From Porphyra umbilicalis (Eukaryota > Rhodophyta > Bangiophyceae > Bangiales > Bangiaceae), in NCBI GenBank assembly GCA_002049455.2, contig KV918794.1, positions 62,001-126,000 of the forward strand: 64,000 nt of DNA, in the 5' to 3' direction. The notes below the pieces were generated by a model, which worked only from the letters and a program-made list of their open reading frames with translations, did not search any database and had not been told where the DNA came from. Numbering within the stretch: the stretch's first letter is position 1; the number at the start of each line of letters is the position of its first letter. Both the position numbers and the translations under genes were made by a program. Shown here one piece after another: positions 1 to 63,530 of the stretch.

Positions 1-308
1 ACGATCTGTGTCTGAGGGACTCCTGCCTCTAGCGTCTACTTGCTTTTCTGCTCCTTTGTCTGATCAGCCCATTGAGATGGGGCAGAGGGATGTGGGAGAT
101 GTCGGCGTGGCCAAAGGGGTGCCGCAGTCGGGGGGCAGAAGGGTGGGCGGCTTCGAAACAGCCGAGGAGAAAGACGAGCGTCACGCTCGTGTTGCTGCGG
201 AAATAGGTGCAGCTCAAGATTCTCTTGACCACTTATGGAAACTGAGGTACCCCGGGGATGCTCCTAGCAGTAAATAAGATTAACATGTGTTCCCAGAAGA
301 ATAATAAC
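1..308. other. Window edge, no gene recognised
   Basis: I see no recognisable coding sequence, RNA gene or repeat here. It lies downstream of the minus-strand helicase gene, so it should hold that gene's 3' untranslated region. If helicase and transposase belong to one element, one element end could be here or off the window, but I could not identify an inverted terminal repeat. Confidence 0.4.
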
Positions 309-5141: not shown

Positions 5142-8100
5142 TCATTCTTCTTCGTGGTCCTCTTCTACGTCAGACGCCAGCGGCGTGGCCACGCTCGGCA
5201 ACACCGACAGCACGTCATCACCCACCTGCATATCATCAAAGAACAATGCAATGGCCATCCGCTCCCGCAGAGTGGAGATGTCCCGCTGCGAAAACAACAA
5301 GGGCGCTCCCAGCGAAAAGCAATCAGCAGCCGCTAACACAAACACCCCACAACTTCCTCCATCGGTCTGCCGCGGCCAGCGCGGATCCGCCCGCACCGCC
5401 CACGAGGCAACATCCCAACTGGAGGCAGCATCCGGCCCCAGGCGGGAGCGCACCTCGTCACCCAGCCACCGCCGCAAAACGTCCACCACGCCGTTGCGGT
5501 CCGCGCGCCTGACCGAGTCGTAAAAGCAGAACAAGCGGTTGGCCACGTCGATGGCCACGACCACCCAGTGCAACCCGTCGATGTTGACCGGCACGATGAT
5601 CTTGTCGACGGCGTCCAGGTCGAGCCCCATCTTGACGCCCCAGTTGCGCACCCGGTCGTAGCTGTAGCGGGACGGGAGCGGCGCGAGCCGTGAGAAGAAG
5701 AAGGAGTTTAGCATTCTGGTCCGTGGCATGAAGCGGCCGCCCGCAGCCGAGAGCGCATCCCCGCCCGGCGCCTCCTCGTGGAGCGTGCCCCCAGGATGCA
5801 GTTGCGCGGCGCGCTCGTTGATGAGCGCCACCATGGAGTTAAGAAGCTCGTCGTTGAGCCAGCTCTCCCCCGCGAGTCGCAAGAAGTCGGCGCCCTTGAG
5901 GACAATACGGGCCTTGTTCCGCGGGCGCACAGCCTCCGCAGGGGGGTGGTCAATGAGGCGGCGCGCAAATGCGAGCGCCTCCTTGGACAATGGCCGCGTG
6001 TCCATCGGCTCGGGGTTGGGGACAGATTGGCCGTCGATCCAGCGCGCATGCTCCACGAGTAGCCACCCGTGCAGGAACTTGTCCAGCGCTTGGTCACCGT
6101 CGAGTAGATTGCCGCTCGCGGGCTCCGTCTCATCCACTGCCCCTGTCAAATCCACGAAGGCCTCATCAACGAGACCGGTGGCTGCACCTGCGTCCCCCGC
6201 ATGGTCTGCAATCGCGCTGGGATCCCCCGCCGCGTCTCCAACCACGGCCGCGTCGGCCACCCCCGTCGCGTCGGGCTCCGCCGCCGCGTTCTGACCCGCG
6301 TGTGCATCAACCGCGCGCACCCAGTGGGTCGCGGCCACGCAGTTGCTCGCTCCGACCGCGTCAGCGACATCCATCCGCGTGCCGGCCACGTCCACCGACA
6401 TGGGCACTGGTACGAGCTGCATCGCCCCTTCGCGCCCCCCCATCGAGTCGGCCGCCACAGCAGAGTCGGTCGCCGCCACGCCGTCGATCACCTCCAACGC
6501 GTTGGACGTCCCCACCGCGACGGGTGTCTCTTGATTGGTGACATCGTCGCCGTCGAGCTGCTTGCACGAGCACAAGGAGACGCGCGCGCATTGGTGGGAC
6601 ACCTTGGAATGGAAGAAGGGCGCCAACCACACATGGTCGTTTTCCCCAGGCGAGTTGTCGGCGTTGAGGCGGTACAACTTGCGGATGTTTGCAAAGGCGA
6701 CTTGCACCATCTTGTGCACCATGTAGGTGGCTGGGGCCATGTACGCCAAGCTGGTACGGTTGACGACGGCGATTGAGTGCGAGACCTCCGCGGCTTGGGT
6801 TGCGACGCCAGCCGTGGACCCCAAGCTGTCGTCGGGCATGTAGATGGGAGAGCAGGTGTGCGTGATGGAGTGCGACCGATCCAAGATGCAGCGCACCCCG
6901 TGGGCGCGCATGATGGGCCTCACCCGCCGCATCGCGTTCTTGTCCAGCTTACACGCCACGTCGTAAAAAATCACCTGCGGCAGCTTGGGAAACCGCTCCA
7001 AGACGATGGAGAGTGCCTCCCCCACGCTCTCTGCCCGGAACAGGCAGCGAAAGCCCAGCGTGATGACGTGGGGGCAAACGACATTGAAGACGCCTTGAGT
7101 CAAACCGGCCTTGATGGAGAAGGCCTTGTTGCACGCGTCGCCCTCTCCCTCCAGGTCTGCAACATGCCGGTCCTTACCCCGGTACTGGACCCGCCGCTTG
7201 GCCGCCTCCGAGTCCATGATACCCGGGCGCACCCGGGGCAAACCCGCAAAGTACTCGTAGCTGACGAGCGGGTCGTTCTCGTCCAGCGCGGCGAGGTCCG
7301 TCTGCTCAAATCTCCAGTCGAGGTAGTCTGCCGGCGTGGGGGTGCCCTTCCATCGTGCACAATAGTTGGCGTTCTGCCAGCCCGCGTCCAGGGTGCTCTT
7401 CTTGGACGCCTGCTCTGCGTAGACGTCGTCGACGTACTTCTCGATGGAGACCGCTTTCAGCAGCAGCTCGCCGACCGCCGCGCGCAGCGAGCGGTCCTCC
7501 TCCAGGTCGTCCGCAAACTGCCCCAGGAAGCTTGCCACGTACCCGACCCCATCGGCGGCCGCCGTGAATTTTCGCCACTCGTCCCTCCCCCGGATGCGGA
7601 TGGCGTTGGCCAGCAGCTCGACGGCCTTCTCGTCAAAGCTCTGGAACATGCCACAGATCGTCTCCGTGAGCATGGCGTGCAAGAAGGGGTGTGCGGCGCA
7701 CCACACGTCCGCGTCCTCCAGCGAGTACGACTCAAAGGCCGGGCGGCACAGCCCAACGCGGTCGGACCATACCTCCACGGGCTTCTTCGGGACGGGCCCC
7801 TTGCCGCCCAGCACGAGCTTGCCCTCTTTGTCGACGCGCACCGCGCTCTCCAGTGTGGAGGCCATAGACGACCGACGTCGCTTGGGGCCGGGAGCGGTGG
7901 TGGTGTTGGCCGTCGGAGTGGTGCCGGTCGCCCCGTCCTCGTCGCCAGGCGGTGGTGGGGCGGCTTGCGGATTTCCCAGCGGGAAAAAGTGGAAGAACAC
8001 CTTAGCGGCAGCAGCTTCCGGCGTCGGGCGGCCAGGGGCATCGACCATCTCTTGCCAGGCCCGCAAGGCCGTGATTTGGCCCGCCGTCAGCGCCGTGGAG

Positions 8101-10218
8101 CTCCGCAACACCTTTGAGATGGCGTCCCGCAATGGAGCTTTCTCAAAGATGCACAGCTTTGACGCCGGGATGTCAAGCACGGGGCAGTTCTCCCCGGGCC
8201 GTAGCGGCGTTGTGTCATCGGGATCCGAGCATCCGAGTGCTTGGGCATCAATGACGATGAAGGCGGGATTCGGACCGCACAGCGGGCACCGCCCCGACTC
8301 AGGAGGGATCTTAAAAGTCTTGATGACGGCGGTGCCGAGCTTCACCACGTCTTGCCGCCGCAGGGAAAACGACTGCACGTCGGCCGAGAGGTGTCGGGTG
8401 GCCGCCGTGTAGGTGGTGCGGCCGGCAATGATGGAAGACACCAACTTATCCACCACCCCCCGAGTGAATAGCAGCCACTGCTTCTTCTTGTTCCGCCGCC
8501 GCAGGGAGAAGAGCGCGTCCTCGTTGCCGTCGTACTCAACCGTGCGCTTGCAATCTGCACCATCGCACTCCCATCGGCCAACCCACACCTGCTCAATGCA
8601 AAACGGCCGAGATCCACTTGACATCGGAGATGCAAGTCAGTCATCCGCGTGCACAGAGAGCATTGGCGGCGTGGCTCGCCGATCCACAAAGAGAATCACG
8701 TGCAAAAAGACATGAGCAAAAAGTGGAGATGAGCTCGGACATGAAAGCATAGAAGACAGCAGCACATACCTTCAAAGACGGCGCAGACGGATGGTGTGTC
8801 GTCAACAAGCCCGGCTCCTTGACCACCTCGTGGCGCTCCTCGCGCTTTTGACCGCAGCTTCCGCAACATGGCTCCACCAGCACGTCCCGTACGTCTCGTA
8901 GGTGGCCTGCCCCCATCGAGAAGGCAAACAGCTGGTTGTGCATCTTCAAGTCGGACGCCTTCGCTGCAGCAGGTCCCGACACCCTCTTCATGTACAGCGC
9001 CCGCCAGTCTGCCGTCCGCGCCCATACTTCTCCTTGATCACATTCCGTCGAGCACGGCAGCAGGTTGCGGGAGGCGCGGGAAGAGAGCTTTGCCTGGTCC
9101 GGATCTTGCGGGCCCCGGATCGTATCAGACTCCTCCTTCTCGACCCCCTCGTCCTCCTCCTCGTTATCAAGCACCTTCGCACGTGGAGCGCCGGCATGCT
9201 TACGGGCATGAAGGCGCGCCTTGACAGCGACGGGTGCCGTGCCGGTGCTTGCGTCCAAAAACCCATCAGGACCCTGTCGGTCACGTGCAACGCGCACGTG
9301 ACCACAACGACCGCGGAAGCGCCGGCACCCCGGGGCAATGCAGGCGGGTGCGTTGCCGGAGCTGAAGGACACGACGGAAAAGACCGATCGGTAGAGCACC
9401 GCCCACAGGATCGTCACCCCGTACTCGTCGGGTACCGCAAAGTCGGCCGCGTCAGCGCGGAGGCGCATGCGCCCGCGGAAGACGTCGATGCCCACGCCCG
9501 ATACCGCCAGCGCCTTGTTCATTGCCACCGTGTGGATGCACTTCGTGCTACGAGCAGATGCGGAGAGGAAGAGGGCGTTTTGGGTGCCGCCAAAGCACGA
9601 GCACAGGAGACCGTCACGGCAGGACACCCACATGATGGCGACGTCTTTCTTGCCGACGCCGCTGCGGAGCACGATCGCTCGCGACCGCGAGTTCTTGTCG
9701 CCAATCACCCGAGCAGTGACGGAGGTGCTCCGAGAGACGAGCGGCTGCGACGAGGGCAGCCCGCAGGCGCGCTGGATGCAAGCCACGAGCGCCTCCTGCA
9801 CAAAATCTTGAACAAACAAAGCGGCGCGCGGGGTGCGCTTGCGTACAGCAGGGCGCAGCGGCGACAGAGCTCCAGCCGAGTCGTCACCTTCATCACCATC
9901 TGCACCTGAGGGTCCGGCAGTAGACACCGTCCGTCGATCGGAGCGGTCCTTCGGTTGGACGTCATACCGCTTCTTGATGTGGGTGGCGAGGTCGCGATCT
10001 CCTCCTCCTCCACGAGCGCGTTCCATCTGCGCGCTCCATGAGCGCCCGACCGGTCGGCCACGACTAGCGGCAGCGCTGCAATGCACGACAGTGCTTGGAC
10101 CGTGATGACACGGAAGCAGAGCGACTCTTGCCGCCAAAGCTTTGGCGGCGTCCCGGCTCCCATAAAAGGAGAACTCCACCGGCCTTGCCAAGCTCGGAAG
10201 TGGCCGGGAGGTCGACAT
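5142..10218 (-). CDS. KDZ/Zisupton-type transposase with SWIM zinc finger and C-terminal Ulp1 (C48) protease
   Basis: Two long frames (8641-10218 and 5142-8624) join through a predicted phase-0 intron at 8589-8769 (donor AAG|GTATGT, acceptor GAGCAG|GTG), giving about 1,631 aa from 8770-10218 plus 5142-8588. The first exon carries a SWIM-like CxC...CxH motif (CSC ... CIH) near residues 210-240 and a second Cys/His cluster (C..GRCGH). Exon 2 opens with the CxC-type pair WEC..ADC followed by EYDG, then CPLCG, then the KDZ core with VIFYDVACKLD and ILDRSHSITH. The last 250 residues are a SUMO-protease-like C48 domain with WLND, catalytic His in GLHWVV, Asp in FYDS, and Gln/Cys in TDGGSCGVF. All expected catalytic residues of the protease are present. 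Start chosen at the first ATG; an internal ATG at 10026 is possible. Confidence 0.8.
8589..8769 (-). other. Predicted 181-bp intron in the KDZ transposase gene
   Basis: The donor on the minus strand reads AAG|GTATGT and the acceptor GAGCAG|GTG. Both are phase 0. Removing the segment skips the stop at the end of the upstream frame and joins a Cys-rich segment (CCGSCG) to the CxC motif WEC..ADC at the start of the next, as expected for KDZ transposases. Other acceptors nearby do not keep phase. Confidence 0.6.
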
Positions 10219-10256
10219 GGTCGAGAGTAGCCGTGCCGATCACACCCATGTCCGCC

Positions 10257-11295
10257 CTGCCGCCCGCCGGCGCGCTGGGGTGGCGCCCAGGCCCGCAAAA
10301 CGATCCGGAAAAAGGCGCTCAAAGCCGCACACGCGGGCACCGGTAGTAAAGTGGGGCGGCGGAGCAACGGGGGAAGCGGCAAACCACCACCAGCCCGCCC
10401 AATCCAGCCGCCCCCCCCGCCGCCCGCCGCCGCACCGGGGCGGCGCCCAGGGCGGCAAAACAACACAAAAAGGCGCTCAACGCCGCGGACGCGCCTACCA
10501 GAGGTGGGGAGGGGCGGGGAGCAACGGGGGACGCCGCAAACCGCCACCAGCCCGCCCAATCCAGCCGCCCCCCACGCCGCCCGCAGGCGCGCCGGGGCGG
10601 CGCCCAGGGCCACAAAACGACGCAAAAGAGGCGCGCAATGCCGCGGACGCGCCTACCGACGGTGATGAAGGCGGGGAAGCAACGGGGGCAGACGCAAACC
10701 GCCACCAGCCCGCCCAATCCAGCCCCCCCCCCGCCGCCCGCAGGCGCGCCGCGGCGGCGCCCAGGGCCACAAAACGACGCAAAAAAAGCGCGCAATGCCG
10801 TGGACGCGCCTACCGAAGGTGGGGAAAAGGGGGAGCAACGGGGGAAGCCGCAAACCGCCACCAGCCCGCCCAATCCAGCCCCCCCCCGCGCCGCCCGCAG
10901 GCGCGCCGCGGCGGCGCTCAGGGCCACAAAACGACGCAAAAGAGGCGCGCAATGCCGCGGACGCGCCTACCGAAGGTGGGGAAAGGGGGGAGCAACGGGG
11001 GAAGCCGCAAACCGCCACCAGCCCGCCCAATCCAGGCCCCCCCCCCGCCGCCCGCAGGCGCGCCGCGGCGGCGCCCAGGGCCACAAAACGACGCAAAAGA
11101 GGCGCGCAATGCCGCGGACGCGCCTACCGGAGGTGGGGAAGGGGGGGGAGCAACGGGGGAAGCCGCAAACCGCCACCAGCCCGCCCAATCCAGCCGCCCC
11201 CCGCGCCGCCCGCAGGCGCGCCGGGGCGGCGTCCAGAGCCGCAAAACGCCACAAAAAAAACTGCAACGCCGCGGACGCGGCCACCGGCGGTAGGG
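10257..11295. repeat. Tandem array of about 6.6 copies of a 157-bp GC-rich unit
   Basis: The landmark AAACCGCCACCAGCCCGCCC (AAACCACC in the first copy) recurs at 10381, 10538, 10696, 10852, 11009 and 11167, giving spacings of 157, 158, 156, 157 and 158 bp. Each unit also contains a GCGCGCCG...GGCGGCGCCCAGGGCC block and a GGACGCGCCTACC block. Copies differ by scattered substitutions and by length changes in C and G runs. The unit is not a multiple of three, so the ORFs crossing the array change frame each unit and are not genes. The array starts about 40 bp upstream of the transposase ATG and may be the subterminal region of the KDZ element or a host minisatellite. Confidence 0.9.
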
Positions 11296-12042
11296 AGGTG
11301 GGGGGGAGGTTCAGGGACCAAGCGCGGGCAGCGTCCGGTCGGGGTGGACGCCAGGCGCGCGGGGCGACGATGACGGTCGAGGTGCAGATCGGGGGCGTGA
11401 GGAGGGCGCGCCTGGACGGTCGTGAGGGGGGTCCAGATCGGTGATGTGGAGGGGGTGCCGCTGGAGGTCACGCGCCTGTCAGCTGGCAGTGTCTGGGGCC
11501 TCGGGCCCGACTGTTCGTCTGGCGTCTGGACCTTGACATGTCCGGAACCAGACGTCAGTGCCCTGATGTCTGGAGGGTGCACTGAATGGGCCGCATTGAG
11601 CGGTGGTCTGATTGCGTGTCTGAAGGGGCGTCCAGCGGCCTCGACGGTGCAGTGCGGCCCTCTGATTGGCGGAAAAGCTGTTCACAGCCGATTCTCACAC
11701 CCGATCTTGTGAATGTCGATCCGCCCGATTACTTCACGGGTCAGCGCGTTGATCCGCACGGGCGTGCATGCGGCGTGACGCCGAGACGCCTCCGGCGTCC
11801 CGACCACCAAGGCGTCACCCGCGCCGGCTCCTGGCTGCGCCGCACTACGGGTATACCCGCCTCGTGCATTGCGTGAATGCCATGACGGCAATGCCCTCGT
11901 GCACCACACGTTTGTTCAATTGAAACTTGTTCCCTTGCCGTTTCCCCGTTGTTTCTGCTCCTCCCCCCTCTCCCCTCCCCCCTCGCTCAACCTGTACGAC
12001 TCCCTCACCGACCTGCGCGGTAGCCGCTCCCGCCACCGCACC
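11296..12042 (+). promoter_or_regulatory. Non-coding region with ALG2 leader
   Basis: No gene is recognised. The last ~110 bp before the ALG2 ATG, from about 11935, are strongly C/T-rich on the plus strand, the same kind of pyrimidine leader seen before other genes in this window. The start context is CCGCACC-ATG. No TATA box is obvious. Confidence 0.4.
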
Positions 12043-13365
12043 ATGCGCGTCGCCTTTCTCCACCCCGACCTCGGCTTGGGCGGCGCCGAGCGGCTCATCA
12101 TTGACGCCGCCACCGCCCTAGCCGCCCGCGGCCACGGCGTGACCATCTACACGGCCGCCCGCGACGGCGCCCGCTGCTTTGCCGACGTGCACCCCGACCG
12201 GCCCGCCGGCGCCGTGCCCGCCGTCGTGGTGCTCCCCCCCCCCATCCCCCGCACGGTCGCTGGCGGCGGCGCCGCCGTCCTCGCCGCCGCCCGCATGACC
12301 GCCCTCGCCGCCGTCATTGTGGCGACGGGCCGCCCCGACGTGGTCGTTGTCGACCAAGTCGCCGCGCCCGTGCTGCTCCTGCGCGCGGCGGGGGTGCCCA
12401 CCGTCTTTTACTGCCACTACCCAGACGTGGATGTGGAGGCGAGCCTCCGCGCCGCGGGGGGGGGGGGGGGGGGGCGCCCCGCCCCCGCCTCCGCGCCCTC
12501 TACCGCGCCGCCGTGGACGCGGTGGAGGCGGCGGGCGTCGCCGCCGCCGACGCGGTCGGCGTCAATAGCGAGTTTACGCGCGCCGCGTACGGGCGGGCCT
12601 ACCCGGGAGCGCCCGCCCCGGCGGTCGTCTACCCCGCGGTGCGGGCGGTCGGGGGCGGCGGCGCCGACGGGGCGGCGGCGGCGGCCGACGCGGCCGACGC
12701 CGACGCCCCCCTCACGCTCCTCTCCATCAACCGGTACGAGCGCAAAAAAAACATCCCCCTCGCCCTCGAAACGCTCGCGCACCTCCTCCGCCCCGACGGC
12801 GGCGGCGGGGTGGCCCTCCCCCCCGGCGCCGCCGCCCGCCTGCGCCTCCTCCACATGGGTGGCTACGACGAGCGGCTGAGCGAAAACGTGCAACACCACG
12901 ACGAACTCGCCGCCCGCGCGGCCGCCCCCGACCTCGCCGGCCGCGTCACGCTCGCCGTCAATGCCGCCGACGCGGAGGTGGCGGGCGCCCTTGCGTGCGC
13001 GACCGCCCTCCTCTACACCCCCACCGACGAGCACTTTGGCATTGTGCCGCTGCAGGCGGCGGCGGCGGGCCTGCCGGTCGTTGCCGTGGCGGCGGGGGGG
13101 CCCCTCGAGACGGTTGCCGACGGGGTGACGGGGTGGCTCGTCCCCCCGACGGCGGCCGCGTTTGCGGGCGCCGTCGGGCGGGTGCTCGCGGCGGGGGGGG
13201 GGGGGGGCGGGGGGGCATGGCCGCCGCCGCCCGCGCGCGCGTCGCGGAGCGGTTTTCCATGGAGGGGCTCGGGCGGGGGTTTGAGGGGCTCGCCCTGGCG
13301 GCCGTGGAGGGGCGGCGGCGGCGGGGGGGTGGGGGGGGTGGCTCCGCTCCTGGTGGGGGGGGTAG
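12043..13365 (+). CDS. ALG2: ALG2, alpha-1,3/alpha-1,6-mannosyltransferase of N-glycan precursor synthesis (frame changes at G runs)
   Basis: GT4-family, GT-B-fold glycosyltransferase that adds the second and third mannoses to Man1GlcNAc2-PP-dolichol on the cytosolic face of the ER. Family marks in order: FLHPDLGLGGAER at the N terminus, VVVDQV, FYCHYPD near residue 125, VNSEFT, SINRYERKKN and DEHFGIVPLQ followed by GGPLETV..G.TGW, then RARVAERFS at the end. The reading frame shifts at a 19-G run (12456-12474) and again at a 15-G run (13193-13207), with family similarity continuing smoothly across each, so I read one intact gene with homopolymer length errors. About 430-440 aa, normal for ALG2. 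The second Glu of the EX7E motif is Gln here. The stop is uncertain because of more G runs; a TAG at 13363-13365 is the best candidate. The NmrA-like gene converges on it. Confidence 0.85.
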
Positions 13366-61196: not shown

Positions 61197-62460
61197 CTAC
61201 GAGCCCTTCTGGGCTAGCTCCGGATGGGCGACGAGTGAAATCAGGATCTTGACGTTGAAACGCCGTGCGAGATCTTGAACCTGGTATCGTGGAGCCGGTC
61301 GATGCTTATCTGCTTCCGCCTTCATATCCGCCTTAGTTTTCAGCTGCCGCCAATCTTGGGATAACCAGGAAGGCGGCTCTGCATCGTGGCGTACAAGCCA
61401 CTCCGCAAATTCCGTCTTCTTTATTGCTGACCTCCAAAAAATGGCGGTTGCAGAGTGGTTGCAATCATTCAACAGCGTACGTGGACCAATGGCAAGGCTA
61501 GGAATCAAGCGAGTTCCTTACACAGTCTCCTCATGCAGCTCTGCGCGCCGGAAACGCACATCAGCATCTCAAGAAATCTGAAGAAAATTGTTGATCTCAT
61601 AACAAATCAGAGGTCTGGCGCAGAACCCTCTCCATGCCCTCTTCAGGCCCGAGGAAGCGGCCCAAAAATCTCAGAAAATCGCATTATGGGTTGCAATGGC
61701 TCTGCGTGACCCCTAGAAGACACGTTGACTGGCTTGCAAGATTACTGGCGGCAACTCTCAGCCAATCGTGCGATCGTGGCTTGTCAAACAGCCAATCCGA
61801 CTTCATTTATATGCTGTGTCGTCGGCTCTGCCTCCCTTCTCTCTGCAACCGCCATTTTTCGGAGGATAGCAATATCTTAGTCGTAGCTGGGCGCGCATCG
61901 TCCGTCAGCGTTAAGTGGTAGGGCGCCCGATCAATCACAAGTACGCCGTCCGAGATCTTGGGGAAGACATCATCCTCCAGCCATTTCAGCCAGGTAGGTC
62001 CGTTCATTTCCTTGTGATAGTTGCCCGTACTCTTTTTCCCGACAAACGAGAGGCCAGCACCTTGCAGCAAGCCCGTCTCTCGCGAGCCGACGTGGGCGAT
62101 GATGATACGCCCGCCCTTTCCCGACGGCTGGTCCAATGGCGAGCGCAGGTTTCCGTCGTTCCAGCTACGGTAGACCGACATATTTTTGTTGGCCCACGTT
62201 TTTTCGGTGTAGAAGATGACCGTGCCGCTCGCCTGGTACTGCCGCAGCGTATCAATGAAGTCCTCCCGCTGGCGGATCACAGATGGCTTGTCCCGTGCCA
62301 CATCATAATGGTTGGGCCCCTTTGAGAAGGTGAATCCAATATCCTGCAGGCAACGAAAGAGTGTCGTGCGCGACCACAAATAGGCGCCCTGTCCACCGCC
62401 ACGCGCCCCCCCCCGGACGGCACCAGCCTCCCCGATGCCGACACCCGCGCTGGCCACCAA
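61197..62460 (-). pseudogene. Decayed IS630/Tc1-mariner-like DDE transposase
   Basis: The minus strand at 61807-62460 encodes a clear DDE-type domain: a helix-turn-helix end (SRTTLFRCLQDIGF), RQREDFIDTLRQY, FYTEKTWANKN, then GKGGRIIIAHVGSRETG, GNYHKEMNGPTWLKW and GVLVIDRAPYH with the second Asp. In active relatives the first block reads Y.DETW; here the catalytic Asp is Glu. Similarity resumes in another frame at about 61200-61440 (AIKKTEFAEWLVRHDAEPP, YQVQDLARRFNVKILISLVAHPEL), so an intron or lesion lies around 61440-61850. The sequence ends right after HPEL, before the NPIExxW block that carries the third acidic residue. N-terminal DNA-binding sequence is also missing. It is probably dead. 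It lies head to head with the Myb-like ORF, about 75 bp apart. Confidence 0.75.
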
Positions 62461-62534: not shown

Positions 62535-63530
62535 ATGCCGCGACCAACAATGTCGGACCTTGGTGGGGCTGGCGGCGGTGCCGAGAGCGAGTGGAACAAG
62601 TCTTCGGTCGGGAGCGTGGCATCATCCAGCACCGGCGGTGCGCCGACACCGCAGCCCCAGGGGCGCCGCGCGAGCGGCGGTCCACGCCGCGGGGGCGGCG
62701 CAAGCGCGAAGAAGGTCCCCGGCAACGGCAAGGGAAAGTTGTGGACGGTCGACGAGCAGGTGGCTCTCTGTGAGGCGTTTAAGTTGGTCGCGCAACGGTC
62801 GGACATGGGAGCTGACTGGTCGAGGGAATGTCTTTGGGACACCATTCAGGAGGACTTTGTGAAGCACATCCCCAAGAGCCTGAAGCCCAGTGACCTGAAG
62901 GGCCGATGGAGCGAGCGCACGGCGGGCTCCAAGCAAACGCAGATTTACCGCAAGATCGCGCCCGACGTGCAGCGCTTCGCACACGTCTTCAACGTGGTAT
63001 CCGACAAGAAGCAGCTCACCGGGGGGCTGACTGAGGAGGACCTCGTGCGCGCCGCCGCGGGCCTCTTCTCCGGCGTGTCGGCGTACCAAGCCGTGCGGCA
63101 GGACGCGTGCTCGTACGACGAGCGCGAGCGGCAGGGAAAGGCGCGCGCGGAGCGGACCGGTCACGTGGTGACGTGCGCGTGCATTCCGATGTGGCGCGTG
63201 CTGAGAGAGATGGACAAGTTCAGCGCGGCGGCGGCCGATGCCGACGCCGTCGCCGACCACTTTCACGGCACTGGTGGTCAGCAGGGGCTTTGGAATCAGG
63301 CATTTTTTGTCGCATTAGGATATATTCCACATTGCCTGAGATGCACTCTGGAGAGTGTGGTATTTGACAAAGTCATCGATCCGAAATCAGATCTTGCTGG
63401 GCCGGACGGAGTAAGGATAAATAGTATAATCGGATACTCAATAAGTGCGATTTCGGATATGGTCCGGATAGACAAATTGAATATATTCTCTTGGATGTTG
63501 CATCTGGACAAAAAGAAAATTTATCGATAG
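62535..63530 (+). CDS. Myb/SANT-like DNA-binding protein of transposon type, probably truncated
   Basis: 331 aa as read. After a Gly/Ser-rich N terminus comes GKGKLWTVDEQVALCEAFKLVAQ, a trihelix/Myb-SANT-like start, with SRECLWDTIQEDFVKHIP, LKGRWSERTAGSKQTQIYRKI and SGLTEEDLVRAAAGLFSG-type segments (here GGLTEEDL). This matches the Myb-like proteins that accompany transposases or derive from them in plants and algae. From about 63290 the DNA turns AT-rich and the encoded protein (GYIPHCLRCTLESVVFDK ...) no longer resembles the family, so the original reading frame was probably cut by an insertion and the last ~75 residues are fortuitous. Start at 62535 (MPRPTMSD); a second Met is five codons on. 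Confidence 0.55.
   Translation: MPRPTMSDLGGAGGGAESEWNKSSVGSVASSSTGGAPTPQPQGRRASGGPRRGGGASAKKVPGNGKGKLWTVDEQVALCEAFKLVAQRSDMGADWSRECLWDTIQEDFVKHIPKSLKPSDLKGRWSERTAGSKQTQIYRKIAPDVQRFAHVFNVVSDKKQLTGGLTEEDLVRAAAGLFSGVSAYQAVRQDACSYDERERQGKARAERTGHVVTCACIPMWRVLREMDKFSAAAADADAVADHFHGTGGQQGLWNQAFFVALGYIPHCLRCTLESVVFDKVIDPKSDLAGPDGVRINSIIGYSISAISDMVRIDKLNIFSWMLHLDKKKIYR

Follow-up and report, generated by a model that had tools for sequence, protein, structure and literature searches.

What kind of mobile unit does a large gene with a KDZ transposase core belong to, and does that unit end where the gene ends? The gene lies in a stretch of 64,000 nucleotides from the red alga Porphyra umbilicalis (GenBank assembly GCA_002049455.2, contig KV918794.1, positions 62,001 to 126,000). 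This whole stretch is called the window here, and the contig that carries it is C34. A sequence-only reading had described the gene as a complete, open copy of a KDZ/Zisupton transposase. The gene is indeed open, but the region delimited at that time covers about one third of the unit and leaves out both element ends and two further genes, all of which were located in the present analysis. The KDZ gene is very probably the transposase of a complete, apparently autonomous, Zisupton-like DNA transposon of 14,620 bp with three genes, the other two encoding a PIF1-type helicase and an orphan protein termed G3.

Ends, target duplications and gene order

The genome search for further copies proposed by the sequence-only reading yielded the termini of the element and its 8-bp target-site duplications. 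It was made in the window's own assembly (83.8 Mb, 665 contigs), where a DNA search gave at least 76 matching pieces. The copies remain homologous up to window position 11738 in the 5´ direction from the KDZ gene, and in the opposite direction to well beyond its stop codon; the 5´ terminus was placed where homology stops in copies C129, C223, C37 and C210. One end of the window copy is at window position 11738; the other, at C34:59119, falls 2,882 bp to the left of the window, and the partner of the duplication CGCTGACC lies outside the window, immediately left of C34:59119. When the flanks of the KDZ gene were tested alone, no convincing classical inverted repeats were found; the 3´ end of the element lies past two more genes. 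The 5´ terminal motif TGAAGGAATCGGGCGCATC and its variants (up to three mismatches) occur 39 times in the genome, versus 2 occurrences of the reversed control, and the 3´ terminus, GAGATAGGAAATGCC.. in inward reading, 25 times versus none for the control.

Thirteen elements have both end motifs on one contig: eight long ones with all three genes (14.4–17.9 kb), four of 1,994–2,001 bp and a copy on C115. The flanking 8-bp duplications were identical at 8/8 positions in 11 of the 13, with 7/8 in C142 and 6/8 in C143, and mispaired flanks used as controls (n = 156) reached at most 5/8. The offset for this comparison was set by eye on five elements (W, C129, C223, C356 and C20b); six of the other eight have 8/8. 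The terminal 100 bp contain 3–6 TCAC/GTGA motifs in six elements; in 210 interior windows these motifs average 0.50 and never exceed 4. Aligned with each other, the ends show an imperfect inverted repeat about 30 bp long, with scores of 6, 7, 1, 6, 7 and 7 in six elements.

These ends speak against a domesticated host gene cluster, multicopy and immobile, in which the shared 5´ motif with its CCAAT-like box would be a promoter. Conserved motifs, including CCAATCAGA, are present upstream of the KDZ gene and closely related copies are few, as such a cluster would have it. The explanation is nevertheless contradicted by the duplications that flank 11 of the 13 elements on both outer sides, by homology that stops at the same bases and by a short copy that has just the ends in common with the long elements, and we regard it as very improbable.

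Two arrangements of neighbouring ends were also observed. At C20:368990-369129 two elements face each other head to head across about 100 bp, with different target duplications; at C223:22240-22397 a second, diverging 5´ end lies next to the C223 element at a distance of about 140 bp, and no body was found for it in the next 2.7 kb. Both suggest an insertion preference near the element's own heads. Leader arrays of about six units with a period of 157–158 bp, like the one listed in Table 1, recur in the diverged copies C129 and C37 (L009 2112-3036; L011 7657-8607).

The order of the three genes was examined in 41 KDZ clusters, which comprise exon-2 places and two places known solely from the DNA search, some of them fragments. 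A PIF1 place on the same strand was found within 20 kb downstream in 36 of the 41 clusters, at 2.0–4.5 kb in 28 of these 36; given 125 PIF1 places in the assembly, about 0.6 such neighbours would be expected by chance. The 36 include C342, where each of KDZ, PIF1 and G3 has two places and the pairing is ambiguous. G3 is convergent within 25 kb downstream in 34 of the 41. Ten of 46 PIF1 clusters and 22 of 56 G3 places have no assigned KDZ cluster, some of these being second pieces of one gene. The identities of the genes fall together across the copies (Spearman correlation 0.64 for KDZ-PIF1, 0.64 for PIF1-G3 and 0.50 for KDZ-G3), which matches the prediction of inheritance as one unit. For KDZ and PIF1, identity was measured against the proteins of the window copy, in 32 clusters, and for G3 against that of C129, in 29 clusters; the values come from partial alignments of unequal lengths, and C20b, the distant lineage and clusters without both values were excluded.

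A single unit is also favoured over a KDZ transposon and an unrelated helicase element that repeatedly came to lie side by side through nested insertion or a target preference. Nested insertion does seem real in this genome, since the short copy on C115 is apparently interrupted by about 12 kb. Against two elements, in each of the 8 long elements tested the three genes lie together between one pair of ends whose duplications match, the strand is constant and the spacing mostly constant; this explanation, too, has very little probability.

A second, more distant KDZ lineage (C24, C172, C342, C104, C154) was observed, with better scores for the KDZ model (33–37 bits). At C24 and C172 the convergent PIF1-G3 pair stands beside a KDZ gene of opposite orientation, which points away, and at C104 and C154 neither a PIF1 nor a G3 neighbour is present. 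Matches to the window protein end ahead of the Ulp1 part at C24, C104 and C342. The 125 PIF1 places contain a group at about 190–208 bits with frames of about 800–1,900 amino acids, Helitron-like by size, and a second group at about 90 bits, many with frames of about 700 amino acids; examples elsewhere in the assembly are C14:380915, C166:40115 and C271:106579.

Table 1. Features of the window element and related short copies (window positions unless a contig is named)
Feature	Position	Strand	Remarks
Target-site duplication, KDZ-side copy	11739..11746	.	minus-strand reading CGCTGACC; 8/8 identical to far flank
5´ terminus (150 bp)	11589..11738	-	CGTGAAGTAATCGGGCG..; subterminal TTCAC/GTGA repeats
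Leader tandem array, 6.7 x 157 bp	10255..11308	-	between terminus and KDZ gene; Tandem Repeats Finder
KDZ transposase exon 1	8770..10218	-	483 amino acids; SWIM-like CxC-x18-CxH codons at 9603-9532
Intron of KDZ transposase gene	8589..8769	-	GT..AG, 181 bp; position matched in 20/20 fetched copies
KDZ transposase exon 2	5142..8588	-	zinc-type cysteines, KDZ core, C-terminal Ulp1/SENP-type protease; Pfam, PDB, conservation
VIFYDVACKLD (KDZ core motif)	6974-6942	-	in exon 2
PIF1-type helicase gene, 880 amino acids	309..2951	-	downstream of KDZ gene, same strand; Pfam, PDB, motifs
G3 (third gene), last 91 codons and stop	1..277	+	frame open across window edge
Short copies, same ends	C36:26600-28598; C74:234571-236562; C129:102676-104672 (L039); C512:15988-17981		perfect 8-bp duplications
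Short copy, apparently interrupted	C115:128937-142934 (start in L052)		same ends, perfect 8-bp duplication; probable nested insertion of ~12 kb

The transposase gene and its domains

The two exons of the KDZ gene (10218-8770 and 8588-5142 on the minus strand) join in frame over the 181-bp GT..AG intron into a product of 1,631 amino acids with no stop codons. All 20 copies fetched have these exon ends too, separated by a gap of 148–213 bp whose GT and AG coincide with the ends of the exon matches or lie one to two codons off. Comparison of copies supports the joining of both exons into one spliced gene, and the single product of about 1,631 amino acids that had been predicted holds.

The protease part is the clearest in database searches: exon 2 matched Peptidase_C48 (Pfam) with 84.1 bits (E = 1.6e-23), over the cut-off. 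Its residues His1007, Asp1024, Gln1074 and Cys1080 (exon-2 numbering) align with those of SENP1 and SENP5 (PDB) and show no variation among the 11 copies of an alignment, A1, picked from the 21 copies in hand for an unbroken exon-2 reading frame. The Ulp1/C48 protease is intact, as had been claimed. The KDZ model (PF18758) was matched by 11/11 copies of A1 (E ≤ 10; best 2.4e-5). When the whole genome was scanned with this model, 28 places had E ≤ 0.001, 19 of them flagged above the cut-off of 26.6 bits; the window place reached 26.4 bits alone and 26.8 bits together with its in-frame neighbours. The identification as a KDZ transposase is thereby borne out.

The SWIM-like motif of exon 1, C206xC208-x18-C227xH229, was present in 17 of 17 copies examined, four of the 21 having been excluded for broken exon-1 matches. 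The finger noticed earlier is thus kept, though exon 1 matched no Pfam family. The zinc-type cysteine pairs noticed earlier hold as well: C8/C13 and C101/C104 of exon 2 are invariant in all 11 copies of A1.

Helicase and G3: partners or passengers

The helicase product matched the Pfam models PIF1 (PF05970; 27.4 bits, cut-off 25.9) and AAA_30 (35.3 bits, also over its cut-off). The match to the Pif1 structure 7otj in PDB (E = 3.6e-21) spans both helicase halves, and the sequence contains GGPGAGKST, LDEVS, GDFLQLGPV and TALSR, which we take to be motifs of superfamily 1B (SF1B) helicases. No Pfam model matched the N-terminal region; an RNase H1 hybrid-binding domain considered there was dropped, as Pfam gave no support in seven copies. 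When the KDZ exons, the helicase gene and the C129 copy of G3 were scanned with Pfam, none matched a model of a Rep (HUH) nuclease. G3 as a whole is an open frame of 817 amino acids (C34:59824-62277), convergent with the helicase gene, most of it left of the window. Its C129 copy had no match in Pfam, NCBIfam or PDB. The predicted structure of G3 residues 1-560 was poor (predicted local distance difference test, pLDDT, 45) and gave no Foldseek match at E ≤ 0.001, and no KDZ or G3 relatives were confirmed in the viral contigs searched.

Selection was estimated from the ratio of nonsynonymous to synonymous substitution rates (dN/dS) among three copies, those of the window, C129 and C223. For the transposase the values are 0.15–0.21 (exon 1), 0.11 (core) and 0.18–0.24 (protease), for the helicase gene 0.16–0.22 (N-terminus) and 0.09–0.11 (helicase), and for G3 0.13 (one copy pair, first 190 codons); dS is high (0.7–1.4), so that the ratios are approximate. 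At 0.09–0.24 throughout, they indicate purifying selection on those parts of the three genes that were tested.

The helicase and G3 might also be passengers, that is genes of the host or of other elements that were captured by an ancestral KDZ transposon and have no role in movement. Giant algal transposons carry accessory genes, most of them without known function, according to the accessible part of PMC12477816, and many of the 125 PIF1 places lie in long frames that are likely to belong to other elements. What speaks against mere capture is that order and orientation are constant at 34–36 of the 41 clusters, most of them at 48–75% KDZ identity to the window copy, and that purifying selection on both genes is about as strong as that on the transposase. 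In addition, the convergent PIF1-G3 pair also adjoins the second, distant KDZ lineage, with KDZ reversed (C24, C172). We consider passengers unlikely; near-constant gene order and selection favour a role of the helicase and G3 in movement.

Movement of the family is best seen in the short copies, which share with the long elements the ends alone and lack the three genes. The one on C129 was read whole, those on C36, C74 and C512 for 101 bp per end. A short copy and the start of the C115 copy are 97.8% alike over 1,946 bp, and the short-copy ends most resemble those of the autonomous elements C356 and C20a. Taken together, these sequence comparisons point to a non-autonomous family of about 2 kb that was recently mobilised in trans. 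The C115 copy was also considered as a 14-kb element with other cargo; this was rejected, as its first 5 kb contain a 2-kb short copy, which makes a nested insertion likely.

Several observations weigh against the interpretation as a complete, apparently autonomous three-gene KDZ element. Hidden Markov model searches, which had been proposed as a check, placed Peptidase_C48 over its cut-off, but gave no family for exon 1 and left the single exon-2 protein below the KDZ cut-off (23.6 bits, E = 4.8e-5; cut-off 26.6); the C129 and C223 places also stayed below it in the genome scan (25.8 and 25.5 bits). Among candidates for the catalytic acidic triad, Asp543 of the core motif VIFYDVACKLD is near-invariant in 11 copies, other acidic residues being invariant, and the predicted structure of exon 2 was poor (pLDDT 47). 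Shuffled ends gave inverted-repeat scores with a mean of -6.2 (standard deviation 3.3), and the best of 1,200 shuffles reached 8, above every element, so that the inverted repeat rests on the pattern common to the elements and not on single scores. The helicase is missing from its expected place in five of the 41 clusters (C104, C13:231210, C24, C257 and C312) and G3 is missing in seven. The nearest copy to the window element is just 80% identical in DNA, with no relative above 80% over its length, so that the signs of recent movement concern the short copies and not the window lineage itself. Among the 21 copies, C223 and C210, the latter truncated, are the closest pair (94.2% over 2,685 bp), followed by C51 and C261 (about 86%). 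Even so, the frames of the window copy are open and its duplications perfect, and many separate lineages persist.

For the three-gene transposon, the ends, the 8-bp duplications, the gene order, the open frames of the window copy, the selection and the recent movement of short copies are the demonstrated parts. Around them a mechanism can be proposed by analogy with the families concerned. The zinc-binding regions of the transposase would bind the subterminal TTCAC/GTGA repeats, the RNase H-like KDZ core would cut at the imperfect inverted repeats, and insertion would take place with an 8-bp stagger. The Ulp1 part may strip SUMO or a SUMO-like tag off the transposase or off host proteins at the element. 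The helicase might unwind the DNA of this long element as it is excised, as the gap is repaired or as the element replicates, and G3 could be a dedicated partner of helicase or transposase. A more far-reaching and rather doubtful possibility is a class of KDZ elements with its own replication helicase: the transposase would cut, PIF1 would displace strands at the excision gap or in an extrachromosomal form, G3 would assist replication or packaging, and Ulp1 would clear SUMO from the stalled complex. A long element of this kind would hold its copy number low for long periods, persisting as a set of many separate lineages.

The element lies upstream of a host glycosyltransferase gene (Glyco_transf_4, 46.7 bits), presumably one that resembles ALG2; its end is about 300 bp from the start of that gene (window 11739-12043), and at this distance the insertion may affect the promoter of the gene. 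Farther away, a possible DDE-type transposase fragment (window 61807-62460, minus strand) is divergent from a SANT-like gene (62535-63530, plus strand). Both were recognised by eye, and neither product had a Pfam match at E ≤ 0.01; together they are perhaps another transposon.

Relation to known transposons

Boehne et al. reportedly described in 2012 that the Zisupton transposase combines a KDZ core, a SWIM-type zinc motif and a C-terminal Ulp1 protease. The element described here resembles Zisupton, known from fish and fungi, in its KDZ transposase with SWIM-like motif and Ulp1 protease, in its 8-bp duplications and in its terminal or subterminal inverted repeats, which are imperfect here. 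It differs in its two extra conserved genes, encoding the PIF1-type helicase and the orphan G3, and in its transposase gene, in which one intron was found; fish Zisupton has 24 exons. Assigned by these features, it is best filed with the Zisupton-like KDZ transposons.

A PIF1-type helicase is also encoded by Helitrons, where it is fused to a Rep nuclease and insertion is not known to leave a target duplication. Here, in contrast, the helicase has a gene of its own, and the element around it encodes a KDZ transposase and makes 8-bp duplications. AcademH, a transposase-bearing DNA transposon that is said to encode a helicase, would be a precedent for such a pairing; its transposase belongs to a superfamily other than KDZ and its helicase reportedly to another class, superfamily 2 (SF2).

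Among fungal KDZ elements, Kyakuja and Dileera carry TET/JBP genes, and 8-bp target duplications are given for Zisupton and Dileera, 7-bp duplications without inverted repeats for Kyakuja, in the sections of PMC12730594 that were available. As far as these sections go, both resemble our element in combining a KDZ transposase with an accessory gene, and Dileera shares its duplication length, but their accessory gene is a dioxygenase and not a helicase. Very long KDZ elements are reported for Ectocarpus and Chlamydomonas, with accessory genes in Ectocarpus and fungi, in the available part of PMC12477816. The same part mentions non-autonomous families of KDZ elements in Ectocarpus, and accessory genes mostly without known function. 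Great length and an algal host are common to these giants and the element in P. umbilicalis, as are, for Ectocarpus, accessory genes and a non-autonomous family. A PIF1 helicase is not named among their accessory genes in that part of the text, the comparison being by description only (PMC12477816).

In the literature surveyed, which covered few subscription journals and did not include Repbase, we found no KDZ element with a PIF1 helicase. The available portions of PMC11258239, PMC12411881, PMC7473861 and PMC8290104 do not link the two, and in a word search of a review of giant transposons (PMC6431247) the words Zisupton, KDZ and Kyakuja were absent. Judged from its sequence, the new feature here would be the combination of KDZ and PIF1 in one gene set; giant KDZ elements with accessory genes were already known. 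With exact ends, recently mobilised short partners and a near-constant set of three genes, a complete and possibly working KDZ element is now defined. It makes testable why a transposase contains a protease of SUMO type and why a helicase would be kept by an element that moves by cut and paste, and it places G3, a large orphan protein family, in a strong genomic context. For the giant transposons of algae it suggests that accessory genes can belong together as a conserved, functional set and need not be random passengers.

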